From: a bacterium
GTDB lineage: Bacteria > RBG-13-66-14 > B26-G2 > WVWN01
Assembly (NCBI GenBank): GCA_035529855.1
Contig: DATKVX010000025.1
Coordinates: forward strand, 1-51,664
Direction: 5' to 3'
DNA: 51,664 nt
Of the stretch, positions 20,597-25,526 are shown piece by piece (positions within the stretch are counted from its first letter, which is position 1; each line of letters opens with the position of its first letter). Position numbers and translations under genes: made by a program. The notes beneath the pieces are model-generated. The model saw nothing but the letters and a program-made list of their open reading frames with translations. It was not told the origin of the DNA and did not search any database.

Positions 20597-22606
20597 GTGG
20601 CGCCGGGAAGGTTAAAGGATTACGGCCGGTTCGTGGGCGAGGTCGCGGCCGTGAGTTGCGTCGCGGGCGTGCTGGCCGCGGCCGGCGAGTACGTGTTGGG
20701 CGCGGCGCTGGGCGACGGCCGGTTTTGGGGGCCGCCGCGTTATTTTTTCCAGATATTGTTGGGCGTCGAGGCGTTGTGGGTAGCGTTTTTAGCCGCCGCG
20801 ATTTTCGCGGTGGCCGCTACGGCGTATTTTTGGTGGGCGTCGCGGCGGGGCCCGGTTCGGTTGGCGTCGCCGGCGCTCTTCGCGGTTTTAGCCGCGCTGG
20901 GCGGCGCCGGTGCGGCGCGCTTCTGGGCCACGGTGGACCATCCGGCATTGCACCGCGGGGGCGTTACGACGCGGCTGATTATCGCGGCGGTATTCGTAGG
21001 CGCCGCGGCGGCCTGGGTCGGCCTCTCCGCCGGGATATACCGGCTCCTGCAAAAGGCGCCCCGGGCCGCGGGGGCGAAGTCGTCGGCCGCCGTCGTCGCC
21101 TTACGCCTGTTCGCGCTGGCGCTGCTCCTCCCGTTCGTAGCGGTCGAACTCGGCGGCCTTTGGCGGGCGCAAAAGCCCCGGCCCCACAAACCGGACATAT
21201 TCTTCTTGGTAATGGACGCGTTCCGGGCGGACCGCCTCGAGTCGTACGGCGCGACGCGTCGCCTGGCGCCTACGCTCGAGGCCTTCGCCGGCGAGAGCGT
21301 CCTTTTTCGGGAGGCGTACACCGTCTCGTCGTGGACCAAACCCGCGATCGCGACGGCCCTAACCTCTACCCTCCCGAGTACCCACGGCGTTACGGCGCGT
21401 TTTACCGGGTTGCCCGAGGAGGCGTTGACGCTCACGGCGTACCTGCGGGGGAAGGGATACCGCACGTTGGCGGTATCGGCGAACCCCAACATAAACCGCA
21501 TGGCCGGGATGGGCGACGGTTTCGACGTAATGGACAACGCCTGCGGCGGGAGCATCTTGGAAGCGGCGGGGCCGCCCACGGCCGCGGCGCGTATTCTGAC
21601 GAAGCACGACGTATCGCCGCGCGTCTTCGGCGCGCTGTGGCGGCCTACTCGCGACGGCATGGCCTTGAACCGCAGGCTCGAGCTCTGGATGCGTTATACG
21701 CGGGGGCCCGCGCGCTTCGTGTACGTGCATTATTGGGAGCCCCATACCCCCAATCCGGCGCGGCCCGAGTATATGGCGGAATTGAAACCCTTCCTGGACC
21801 GCGTTGACCCGGCCCGCGCGCGCGAGCTCGCCGAGGGTAGGTATTTCTTCCACGACCTTATCAAGGACCCGTTTTTCCGGCCCGATTACGACGACGACGA
21901 GATCGCCTTGGCCAAAGCGCTGTACGACGCGGAGATCCGCCGGATGGACGTCGTTATCCAAGACGTGCTGGAGAACGTTATTCCCGCCTTCGCCGAGGAG
22001 CCGGAACCGATAATAATAATATTGGCGGACCACGGCGAGGAGTTCCTGGAGCACGGCCGGTGGCTCCACGGCGCCGGCCTGCACCGCGAGGTGGCCGAGA
22101 TCCCGCTGATGTTCAAGGCGCCGGGCTACCCGGGCGCGGTGGTCGAGGGAGCGGTGACGCTGACGGACGTCGCGCCGACGCTGGTATCGCTCGTGGGCGG
22201 GAAGATCCCGGCGGAGTGGGAAGGTTTGGACCTGAAACCGTACTTCGCCGGCGAGGAAGCGGTTCCGCGGCGCGACCTACTTCTGGAGGGGATACAGGAT
22301 TTCCACGTACCGGAGCTCGAGCCGCCGCAGCGGAGCATCGAGATGGACGCGCTGGTGGCGGGCGGTTATTATTACCTTAAAGACGACAATACGGGACGGG
22401 AGTTCTTTTATAAAAGGGAGGCCGACCCGCTTCAGCTGGATAACTTGGTAGGCGAGCCGGCCGGCGTCGACGAGCTGCTGGCGGAGCGCCGGGATACGGC
22501 CGACCGTTTAAAGGCCGAAGCCCAAGCGCGGGCGCTCATCCCCTCGCTCGGTTTCGTTCCGCCCCGGCTCGAGAAGTCGCTGCGGGCGTTGGGCTACGTC
22601 AACTGA
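20597..22606 (+). CDS. Membrane-anchored sulfatase/alkaline-phosphatase-superfamily protein
   Basis: 669 residues from a GTG. Five or so N-terminal helices (to about 195) are followed by a large extracytoplasmic domain of the sulfatase fold: 'DIFFLVMDAFRADRLESYGA' with metal ligand D207, and 'ILADHGEEFLEHGRW' with the D-H pair. The usual formylglycine site C/S-x-P-x-R is replaced by SSWTKPAIAT, with T247 where the modified residue would stand. That makes a phosphotransferase or phosphatase role (as in LtaS/EptA-like enzymes using Thr) more likely than sulfate-ester hydrolysis. It could modify the surface glycan. Confidence 0.75.
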   Translation: MAPGRLKDYGRFVGEVAAVSCVAGVLAAAGEYVLGAALGDGRFWGPPRYFFQILLGVEALWVAFLAAAIFAVAATAYFWWASRRGPVRLASPALFAVLAALGGAGAARFWATVDHPALHRGGVTTRLIIAAVFVGAAAAWVGLSAGIYRLLQKAPRAAGAKSSAAVVALRLFALALLLPFVAVELGGLWRAQKPRPHKPDIFFLVMDAFRADRLESYGATRRLAPTLEAFAGESVLFREAYTVSSWTKPAIATALTSTLPSTHGVTARFTGLPEEALTLTAYLRGKGYRTLAVSANPNINRMAGMGDGFDVMDNACGGSILEAAGPPTAAARILTKHDVSPRVFGALWRPTRDGMALNRRLELWMRYTRGPARFVYVHYWEPHTPNPARPEYMAELKPFLDRVDPARARELAEGRYFFHDLIKDPFFRPDYDDDEIALAKALYDAEIRRMDVVIQDVLENVIPAFAEEPEPIIIILADHGEEFLEHGRWLHGAGLHREVAEIPLMFKAPGYPGAVVEGAVTLTDVAPTLVSLVGGKIPAEWEGLDLKPYFAGEEAVPRRDLLLEGIQDFHVPELEPPQRSIEMDALVAGGYYYLKDDNTGREFFYKREADPLQLDNLVGEPAGVDELLAERRDTADRLKAEAQARALIPSLGFVPPRLEKSLRALGYVN

Positions 22607-22636: not shown

Positions 22637-22664
22637 TTGACTTTTTCTATTTTTTATATATAAT
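22637..22664 (+). promoter_or_regulatory. Sigma70 promoter of the valS leader
   Basis: TTGACT (22637-22642), 16-base spacer, perfect TATAAT (22659-22664). Predicted start near 22671, about 20 bases before the leader ORF. Confidence 0.75.
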
Positions 22665-22691
22665 CTGGGAAAAGAAGGGCCGAGAGCAAAG

Positions 22692-22754
22692 GTGGAAATA
22701 ATAAAAGTAGCGGTAGTCGTAGTTGTAAGGGGGGCACCGGCCCGCCCTTGGTGA
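22692..22754 (+). CDS. Valine-rich leader peptide of valS
   Basis: A 20-codon ORF, GTG start, TGA stop, encoding MEIIKVAVVVVVRGAPARPW. Codons 6-12 read GTA GCG GTA GTC GTA GTT GTA, so six of seven are valine and use three different valine codons. A weak GAGAG site precedes the GTG by five bases. The gene ahead is valyl-tRNA synthetase, so the peptide is suited to sense charged tRNA-Val by ribosome stalling, like leader peptides of amino-acid operons. It has no homolog that I recognise and is too short for ORF callers. Confidence 0.75.
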   Translation: MEIIKVAVVVVVRGAPARPW

Positions 22755-22783
22755 CGTTCGTTCGTTACGCTCCAGCGGGCCGG
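22737..22783 (+). promoter_or_regulatory. Antiterminator pairing in the valS leader
   Basis: CCGGCCCGC (22737-22745) is the exact complement of GCGGGCCGG (22775-22783), a 9-bp helix. The 5' strand lies inside the leader ORF, 7-15 bases before its stop codon. The 3' strand shares bases 22778-22783 with the terminator stem, so the two folds exclude each other. Confidence 0.65.
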
Positions 22784-22812
22784 CCCAAGAGCCGGCCTTC
22801 TTATTATTTTTT
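22778..22812 (+). terminator. Attenuator terminator upstream of valS
   Basis: GGCCGGC (22778-22784)/GCCGGCC (22791-22797), loop CCAAGA, followed by a T-rich tract to 22812. It lies between the leader ORF and valS, so it would stop transcription before the synthetase gene. Confidence 0.75.
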
Positions 22813-22883
22813 CAGGTTAGCGCCGTTACCGGCCCGGTCTAACTCCGACGATTAACGGCGCCGTATTGAACGAGGTGAAAGTT

Positions 22884-25526
22884 GTGCCCAAGAAACTCGT
22901 CCCCCGATACGAAGCCTCGGAGCTCGAGGAGCGATGGTACCGCGAGTGGGAGGAGGCGGGCGTATTCACGCCGCCCGAGAAACCCGCGTCGGAGAAGGGC
23001 GTTTTTTCGGTAGTCATCCCGCCCCCCAACGTAACGGGCTCGCTCCACATGGGCCACGCGCTCAACAACACCATCCAGGACGTCGTCGTGCGCCAACGCC
23101 GGATGGCCGGGTACGATACGCTGTGGCTGCCGGGGACGGACCACGCGTCCATCGCGACCCACACCGTCATCGAGCGCGAGCTCGCCAGGGAGGGGCTGAG
23201 CCGCCGCGACCTCGGCCGGGAGGAGTTCCTTCGCCGCGCCTGGGCCTGGAAGGGGCAATACGGCGACACCATCGTCAACCAGCTCAAGAGGCTCGGCTGC
23301 AGCTGCGACTGGACGCGGCTCCGCTTCACCTTGGACGATGTGCTCTCGCGGGCGGTGGTGGAGGCGTTCGTGCGATATTGGGAGGACGGCCTGCTGTACC
23401 GGGACCTTCGTATGGTCACGTGGTGTCCGCGCTGCCGGACCGCCCTCTCCGACCTCGAGGTGCGCCACGAGGAGACGGACGGCATGCTGTGGTACATCCG
23501 CTACCCCGGCGCGGGGGGCGGCGAGGGCGTCGTCGTCGCCACCACCCGTCCCGAGACCATGCTGGGCGACACCGCGGTGGCGGTCAACCCCAAGGACGAG
23601 CGCTACAAGGGACTGGTGGGCGCCGCCGTCGTGCTGCCGCTCGTAGGGCGCGAGATACCGGTCGTTGCGGACGAAGCCGTTGACGCCTCGTTCGGGACCG
23701 GCGCGGTCAAAATCACGCCCGCCCACGACGCCGACGATTACGACGTGGCGCAGCGGCACGACCTCCCCACGGTCGTGGCCATCGACGAAGAGGGCCGGAT
23801 GACGGACGAGGTCCCGGCCAAGTACCGCGGCCTGACGCGCGAGGAATGTCGCGAGGCGGTTCTCAAGGACCTCCAGGTGGAGGGGCTGCTCGAGACCACG
23901 AAGCCCTACAAGGTCCCGCTCGCGATATGCGACCGCTGCAAGACGGTGGTCGAACCGTACCTCTCGCTGCAGTGGTTCGTCAAGCAGGCCGAACTCGCCG
24001 GGCCGGCGCGCGAGGCCGTGGCCGCCGGCGACGTCAAGTTCGTGCCCGAGCGCTGGGTCAAGGTCTATTACGATTGGATGGACAACGTTCACGACTGGTG
24101 CGTCTCGCGGCAGCTGTGGTGGGGGCACCGCATCCCGGCCTGGTACTGCGACGACTGCGGCGAGGTCGTCGTGGCGCGCGCGGAACCGACGACGTGCAGC
24201 TGCGGCTCGAGCAAACTCCGCCGCGACGAGGACGTACTCGACACCTGGTTCAGCTCGGCGCTGTGGCCTTTCTCCACCATGGGCTGGCCCGACGACACGC
24301 CGGACATGAGGGTTTACTATCCCACCGACCTCCTTTGCACCGCCGCGGACATCATCTTCCTGTGGGTGGCGCGGATGATCTTCTCGGCGCTGAAGTTCAC
24401 CGGCCGCGTGCCCTTCCACACCGTCTACTTCCACCCCATGATACAGACCGCGGAGGGGAAGCGTATGTCGAAGTCGCTGGGGACGGGCGTCGACCCGCTG
24501 TCCCTCGTCGACCGCCACGGCGCCGACGCCACGCGCTACACCTTGACCGCGCTCTGCACGCAGTCGCAATCCTTCCGGCTGTGGGAGGAGCGGTTCGACC
24601 TGGGCCGCAACCTCACCAACAAGATATGGAACGCGGCGCGGTTCCTGCTCCCCTACGTGGGGGAGTCGCCGGACGAGTCGCTTCCGGCGGCGGCCGAGCT
24701 CGAGCCGGTCGACCGCTGGGTGCTGTCGCGGCTCGCCCGGGCGCACGCCGAGGCCCAGCGCGAGTTCGACGAGATGCGGTTCAACGACTACGTGCACACC
24801 CTCTACCAATTTTTCTGGGGTGAATACTGCGACTGGTACCTGGAGGCCATAAAGCCCCGCCTGTACGGCAAGGCGCCGGGCGGCGACGCCGCGGCCCGCG
24901 TCGCCCGGCACGTCTTCGACGTCCTGCTCCGCCTCTTCCACCCGGTAATGCCGTTTATTACGGAGGAGCTTTACCGGTTGGTAGCGCCGGGCCGAGGTTT
25001 TTGCGCCCGGGCGCCCTGGCCCGAGGCCGACGTTGCCGCGGCCGACGAGGAGGCCGAAGCGCGGCTCGAGCTGCTGTTTGACGTCGTCCGCGCGGTGCGG
25101 AACATCCGGGCCGAGATGAACGTCCCGCCCGGGCGCGACGTCGACGTAATGTTGTCCGCCGAGGACGCGGTCGTAGCCGGCGCCGCGGCCGAGGCGCTGG
25201 CGCCTTTCTTCGCGCTGGCGCGCATCGCGAGCGCGTCGTCGCTGGCCGCCGGCAAGCGGCCCGCCCACGCCGCCGCCGCCGTCGCCGGCGAGCTGACGGT
25301 ATTCGTCCCGCTGGAGGGCGTCATAGATTTCGACGTCGAGATAAAGCGGCTGACGCGGGCCAAGGAGAAGCTGGAGGCCGACGTCGCGACGCTGGGCCGT
25401 AAGCTGAGCGACGAGAACTTCGTCAAAAAGGCCCCGGCGGACATCGTGGCCGCGGACGCGGAACGCCTCGAGATCCTCAATGCCACGTTGGCGCGGGTAG
25501 AGGATAACCTGACGGCGCTGCAGTAG
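22884..25526 (+). CDS. valS: Valine--tRNA ligase
   Basis: 880 residues from the GTG at 22884, which has a near-perfect site GAGGTGA five bases upstream; an in-frame TTG at 22866 precedes that site and is less likely. Class I synthetase: HIGH-type HMGH at about 55-58, KMSKS-type KRMSKS near 526-531, and an editing (CP1) domain between ('VATTRPETMLGDTAVAVNP'). Zinc-finger-like Cys pairs are present (WCPRCRTALSD, CDDCGEV, CSCG). The C-terminal coiled coil (about 815-880) is typical of ValS. Expression is probably attenuated by the upstream Val-rich leader. Confidence 0.97.
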   Translation: MPKKLVPRYEASELEERWYREWEEAGVFTPPEKPASEKGVFSVVIPPPNVTGSLHMGHALNNTIQDVVVRQRRMAGYDTLWLPGTDHASIATHTVIERELAREGLSRRDLGREEFLRRAWAWKGQYGDTIVNQLKRLGCSCDWTRLRFTLDDVLSRAVVEAFVRYWEDGLLYRDLRMVTWCPRCRTALSDLEVRHEETDGMLWYIRYPGAGGGEGVVVATTRPETMLGDTAVAVNPKDERYKGLVGAAVVLPLVGREIPVVADEAVDASFGTGAVKITPAHDADDYDVAQRHDLPTVVAIDEEGRMTDEVPAKYRGLTREECREAVLKDLQVEGLLETTKPYKVPLAICDRCKTVVEPYLSLQWFVKQAELAGPAREAVAAGDVKFVPERWVKVYYDWMDNVHDWCVSRQLWWGHRIPAWYCDDCGEVVVARAEPTTCSCGSSKLRRDEDVLDTWFSSALWPFSTMGWPDDTPDMRVYYPTDLLCTAADIIFLWVARMIFSALKFTGRVPFHTVYFHPMIQTAEGKRMSKSLGTGVDPLSLVDRHGADATRYTLTALCTQSQSFRLWEERFDLGRNLTNKIWNAARFLLPYVGESPDESLPAAAELEPVDRWVLSRLARAHAEAQREFDEMRFNDYVHTLYQFFWGEYCDWYLEAIKPRLYGKAPGGDAAARVARHVFDVLLRLFHPVMPFITEELYRLVAPGRGFCARAPWPEADVAAADEEAEARLELLFDVVRAVRNIRAEMNVPPGRDVDVMLSAEDAVVAGAAAEALAPFFALARIASASSLAAGKRPAHAAAAVAGELTVFVPLEGVIDFDVEIKRLTRAKEKLEADVATLGRKLSDENFVKKAPADIVAADAERLEILNATLARVEDNLTALQ

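Follow-up and report, generated by a model that had tools for sequence, protein, structure and literature searches.

The gene for valyl-tRNA synthetase in this stretch of DNA (51,664 nucleotides in all, called the window below) is preceded by a short reading frame crowded with valine codons and by a series of inverted repeats. The question raised by the locus is whether transcription of valS is governed by a ribosome reading those codons. That the downstream gene is valS is certain. Its likely start is the GTG at 22884 behind GAGGTGA, and both the start and its Shine-Dalgarno context are the same in the same-genus relatives. Just 5' of this Shine-Dalgarno sequence lies a perfect 9-bp inverted repeat (22820-22828 with 22853-22861, GCGCCGTTA/TAACGGCGC), of which none was seen in one of the relatives (G001). 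The gene and the first part of its leader comprise the following features.

22637-22664, + strand: sigma-70-type promoter (TTGACT, 16 nt, TATAAT), consensus match 11/12
22692-22754, + strand: leader peptide ORF of 20 codons with a GTG start and the stop TGA at 22752-22754, product (M)EIIKVAVVVVVRGAPARPW*
22707-22727, + strand: regulatory codons Val-Ala-Val-Val-Val-Val-Val (GTA GCG GTA GTC GTA GTT GTA)
22884-25526, + strand: valS, valyl-tRNA synthetase (TIGR00422, 1011 bits vs a cut-off of 612)

The promoter, the 20-codon ORF and the six valines in seven consecutive codons had all been claimed in a preliminary description of this DNA, and each was found where it had been placed. Valine is specified by codons 6 and 8-12 of the leader. 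The number of promoter-like matches expected by chance in the scanned region is 0.3, and the gene 5' of the promoter, which encodes a sulfatase-family protein, ends at 22606; the promoter at 22637 is therefore taken to serve valS. In a leader-peptide attenuator, the gene under control is expected to have a short ORF in its untranslated leader with a promoter 5' of it, and this ORF should favour codons for the amino acid with which the gene is concerned. Comparable promoter boxes, and with them this predicted arrangement, were seen upstream of a Val leader in 5/5 genomes of the order described below, and the leaders of the relatives each hold 6-8 Val codons. These predicted ORFs have weak Shine-Dalgarno sequences, with no apparent one in G002.

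Downstream of the valine codons, four strands and a U-rich tail are recognised.

22726-22735, + strand: strand 1, which pairs with 22740-22750 to give the protector/pause hairpin 1:2 (fold of -16.2 kcal/mol)
22737-22745, + strand: strand 2, the 5' arm of the antiterminator, which pairs with 22775-22783 (9 bp, 100% complementary)
22775-22784, + strand: strand 3, common to the antiterminator (22775-22783) and the terminator (22777/22778-22784)
22791-22797, + strand: strand 4, the 3' arm of the intrinsic terminator, whose stem with 22778-22784 has 7 bp (100%)
22798-22813, + strand: U-rich tract of the terminator, UUCUUAUUAUUUUUUC, interrupted, assigned from its sequence

An intrinsic terminator stands between the leader ORF and valS, and an antiterminator exclusive with it has its upstream arm after the regulatory codons and before the leader stop. 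Both the 9-bp antiterminator and the 7-bp terminator stem had been given correctly in the preliminary description; the stem can also be drawn in an extended form (22777-22784/22791-22798). The same account had spoken of a T tract, and the tail is U-rich but interrupted (it reads UUCUUAUUAUUUUUU), weaker than that term implies. It had also missed hairpin 1:2, which competes with the antiterminator, completes the trp-type set of 1:2, 2:3 and 3:4 in the window's genome and, in a modelled ribosome-free fold of the window's leader, would keep the terminator on. This hairpin is absent in some relatives, and an untranslated leader is therefore predicted to read through in G001, G002 and G004.

A constitutive intergenic terminator behind a Val-rich ORF of chance origin, with valS not regulated by that terminator, would give a similar picture in a single genome. 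Around the genes of this genome one often finds GC-rich inverted repeats whose stems are of the CCGGCC type, and the Val5 pattern has 30 matches genome-wide, at ~25 distinct places. Among those places, however, only the one at valS falls in a short ORF with a terminator behind it, and six equal residues in seven codons of a short ORF, counted for any of 12 residues, did not arise in any of 3000 dinucleotide shuffles of the region; on the shuffles and the genome-wide scan, a chance origin of the Val run was rejected. The pairing strength of the window's strands 2 and 3 was reached by 0/300 shuffles. In 12 of the 13 Val, Ile and Leu leaders treated below, the antiterminator was stronger than at least 292 of 300 shuffles, the weak member being the leuS leader of G002, whose antiterminator was matched by 44/300. 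Since the promoter lies upstream of the terminator, all valS transcription from that promoter must pass it, and the layout is kept down to 64% ValS identity and despite an intervening gene. A constitutive terminator with an accidental ORF is accordingly regarded as extremely improbable.

The preliminary description had supposed a Firmicutes setting. The relatives are in fact Candidatus Coatesbacteria, the closest records being the chromosomes CP070633 and CP070755 together with a pair of MAGs that carry the label Candidatus Zixiibacteriota but fall into the same genus here. The contrast with Firmicutes, in which T-box control is usual, is therefore not directly applicable and runs across phyla. 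The order was sampled with five genomes (G000, which is the window's, and G001-G004), four of them from one genus, and a Val-run leader with promoter, antiterminator and terminator was present in 5/5. The leaders of the four relatives are as follows.

G001: MPEVLKVAVVVVVSGAPARPR, ValS identity 91%, directly before valS
G003: MIETASVVVVVVDGASARPR, ValS identity 84%, at the operon head, 1235 nt upstream of valS
G002: MIRSQEVVVVVVVRGARARPR, ValS identity 81%, at the operon head, 1277 nt upstream of valS
G004: MSHDVKKVVVDVVVKGPPVATR, ValS identity 64%, directly before valS, the most distant relative

In G002 and G003 one uncharacterised gene of ~1 kb separates the leader from valS, the leader staying at the head of the operon. 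This intervening gene (L038, L044; two same-genus genomes) has ~320 codons and no Pfam match, and its place behind the Val attenuator would bring it under valine control along with valS.

Alignment of the valS upstream regions of the relatives, a check proposed in the preliminary description, revealed that the Val runs were kept and that compensatory changes had occurred in both stems. In G004 base 22779 is changed from G to A, its antiterminator partner 22741 from C to T and its terminator partner 22796 from C to T. Judged from the alignment, a base common to two putative, mutually exclusive helices is here changed along with both partners. Loss of the Val codons or of complementarity in relatives had been named as evidence that would count against attenuation; the Val codons are kept throughout, while in G002 and G003 a column-by-column reading shows some broken 2:3 pairs, the helix forming there with a one-base bulge instead.

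These features make it very probable that valS is controlled by a classical ribosome-mediated transcription attenuator of the trp type, with charged tRNA-Val as its signal. RNA polymerase would start ~7 nt after 22664, and a ribosome would translate the 20-codon leader. With Val-tRNA plentiful, the ribosome would reach the stop at 22752 and cover strand 2, the 3:4 terminator would form and valS would remain mostly untranscribed. With Val-tRNA scarce, the ribosome would stall on the late Val codons and cover strand 1; strand 2 would then pair with strand 3, no terminator would form and polymerase would enter valS, the expression of which would rise in valine shortage. The cell probably makes more ValS when charged valine tRNA is low.

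The switch was modelled by folding 13 leaders in which the RNA was masked as far as 13 nt beyond the A-site codon while the rest could pair freely, the 13-nt ribosome footprint being an assumption and the calculation thermodynamic, not kinetic. With the ribosome at the stop codon, P(terminator) was 0.86-1.00 in 13/13 leaders. In each leader, a stall at at least one cognate codon placed strand 3 in the antiterminator before strand 4 exists (P 0.71-1.00). In silico, then, the position of the ribosome decides which hairpin forms. For the window's leader, the model predicts P(terminator) of 0.89 with the ribosome at the stop and of 0.00-0.09 when one of codons 10-12 occupies the A site. Masked folding had been proposed in the preliminary description for codons 6-12 and for the stop; the stop gave the terminator and codons 10-12 the antiterminator, but stalls at codons 6-9 permit hairpins 1:2 and 3:4 (the terminator) at equilibrium, where only stalls at codons 10-12 hold the terminator off. 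In the leuS leader of G002 the terminator stays at every stall position at equilibrium. The choice of codons is uneven. GTA makes up 23/34 Val codons in the five Val leaders vs 14% in sampled genes, and CTA 10/20 Leu codons in the Leu leaders vs 2% in genes; ATA shows no clear enrichment in the Ile leaders. Rare codons would be expected to favour stalling.

The preliminary description had missed that leaders of the same design occur elsewhere in the genome, although its valine-codon attenuation is supported. Upstream of ileS in the window's genome there are a promoter, MYSRQPANAIIIIIDLPRSGRLRMP and a terminator, and upstream of leuS MYLKSSRQLVLLLREA and a terminator. An Ile5/Ile6 or Ile3 leader with a terminator precedes ileS in G000, G001, G003 and G004; the last fell below the scan threshold, and MNTFVIIIGNT* with a terminator was found there on direct reading. 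The ileS gene of G002 was left out, its upstream region being N. A Leu leader precedes leuS in G000, G001, G002 and G003, and where upstream sequence was present no cognate leader was found before leuS of G004 and G005, or before valS and ileS of G005, of G006 and of the phylum's other family. Nor was one found, at the thresholds used and in these genomes, before thrS, serS, proS, hisS, pheS, trpS or tyrS, which rules out a general rule for all synthetases; metG, cysS, alaS, argS, glyS, lysS and others lay outside the scope of the scan. The Val attenuator would thus be part of a matched set, with an Ile-codon leader for ileS and a Leu-codon leader for leuS in the same layout.

The ileS and leuS leaders have peculiarities of their own. 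In the window's genome, a second promoter-like site (TTGACT-17-TAAAAT, L202:1634-1662) follows the ileS attenuator and precedes the ileS start. It recurs at the same position in the relatives L190, L192 and L193; lying 3' of the attenuator, it may give ileS an unattenuated promoter besides the attenuated one. No second site of this kind was seen for valS. The AUG of the leuS leader is only 6-7 nt past the -10 box in all four genomes (L203, L196, L119, L121), and translation of the Leu leader would therefore begin on an mRNA that is leaderless or almost so. The spacing is nearly as short for the Val and Ile leaders of G004 (8 and 10 nt).

The agreement between codon run and gene bears on what is sensed. 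A Val-rich arrest or signalling peptide could respond to some other cue, such as an antibiotic or slow translation, and act through the same terminator; such peptides can drive the same antiterminator logic, and the four same-genus leaders also have the C-terminal GAxARPR in common. The codons for this C-terminus overlap strand 2, however, and RNA pairing therefore accounts for their conservation. In G004 the C-terminus differs (KGPPVATR), and the Val codons and the pairing are kept. The identity of the run, moreover, is that of the downstream synthetase in three cases (Val/valS, Ile/ileS and Leu/leuS). Read from the sequences, nothing argues more strongly than this threefold cognate match for the codons, and not the peptide, as the feature that would be sensed, and a peptide sensing another cue is considered very unlikely. 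Valine-codon attenuation of valS, as put forward in the preliminary description, is strongly supported by the five-genome conservation, the compensatory changes, the Ile and Leu leaders and the modelled switching.

The other device to be weighed is a T-box element, which would control valS by binding tRNA, as in Firmicutes, and leave the Val-rich ORF incidental. The T-box motif GGTGGNACC is common upstream of valS elsewhere, being present in 40/105 upstream regions of a first survey and in 3/80 of a second. No Rfam T-box was found in the window's leader, however, at the gathering or a relaxed threshold (E<=5), and a T-box was dropped on this ground; neither a specifier loop nor a T-box bulge (TGGNACC) was found in the leader, and the Val run and its codon frame are conserved. 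A T-box with an incidental ORF has a probability close to nil.

The same surveys define how far attenuation of valS extends. In the first (105 regions, ~13 of them from the phylum), the sole Val leaders were those of G001 and G004, both from this order, and in the second (80 regions from other families) there was no convincing Val leader; neither was there one among the ~170 regions from outside the phylum, the weak Val-rich ORFs of L298 and L324 being judged not convincing. Where upstream sequence was present, none was found in G005 and G006, the class's two remaining genomes, or in the rest of the phylum. Within these sampling limits, the putative attenuators seem to have arisen inside a single order.

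Branched-chain auxotrophy was considered as a cause of the leaders but was not established. Branched-chain biosynthesis has an unusual look in G000 (C47, C108, C50): ilvC is present above its cut-off, and the candidates for acetolactate synthase and ilvD fall below theirs. No Val, Ile or Leu leader was found before the ilvC, AHAS-like and ilvD-like genes that were checked, the ilvC locus of G000 and the ilvD-like locus of G003 being cut by contig ends, so that the stretch taken as upstream may be misplaced. In G000 the AHAS-like reading frame starts with a rubredoxin-like stretch (MAKWKCSVCGYIYDE).

The mechanism itself is known. With the attenuators of Proteobacteria (trp, his, leu, thr, ilvGMEDA and ilvB), the leader shares an ORF of sensed codons, a mutually exclusive antiterminator and intrinsic terminator and, in the window's genome, the 1:2 protector hairpin; those attenuators belong to biosynthetic operons, whereas here the target is a tRNA synthetase in a candidate phylum. 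None of the Rfam leader families matches the window's leader. Attenuation of an aminoacyl-tRNA synthetase through cognate codons is shared with pheST of gamma-proteobacteria and with the attenuators predicted for trpS and leuS in Streptomyces, which differ in amino acid and phylum, and here Val, Ile and Leu cognate leaders occur in one genome. The report of classical attenuation of trpS and leuS predicted in Streptomyces does not mention valS (PMC1262725). In Bacilli, leader-peptide attenuation has been described for hisS*/hisZ, whose authors knew of no earlier case outside Proteobacteria and Actinobacteria (PMC2965389); these too attenuate the synthetase family, with His in place of Val and in Firmicutes. 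The T-box riboswitches of Firmicutes (ileS, valS, leuS and others) have the same outcome, uncharged cognate tRNA raising synthetase transcription by way of an antiterminator, but there the RNA binds the tRNA directly and no leader peptide is needed. No title or abstract describing a valS attenuator was found, and the synthetase survey of Lopatovskaya et al. 2010 (cited in PMC4833913) could list valS. What appears to be new is the use on valS, the occurrence in this phylum and the matching of Val, Ile and Leu leaders as a set, priority for valS being not certain.

It seems on balance probable that one Coatesbacteria order evolved matched leader-peptide attenuators for valS, ileS and leuS, which would do the job of the Firmicutes T-box, with leuS sensors initiating leaderless (at or within 1-2 nt of the 5' end) and with the first described valS attenuator among them. 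The locus offers a case of a base common to two exclusive helices changing with both partners, and a means of predicting amino-acid sensing in uncultivable organisms from nothing but their sequence. Leader attenuation of synthetase genes has so far amounted to a few cases (pheST, trpS, leuS and hisS) in Proteobacteria, Actinobacteria and Firmicutes; three branched-chain synthetases with their own cognate leaders in an uncultured phylum point to repeated invention of the device.
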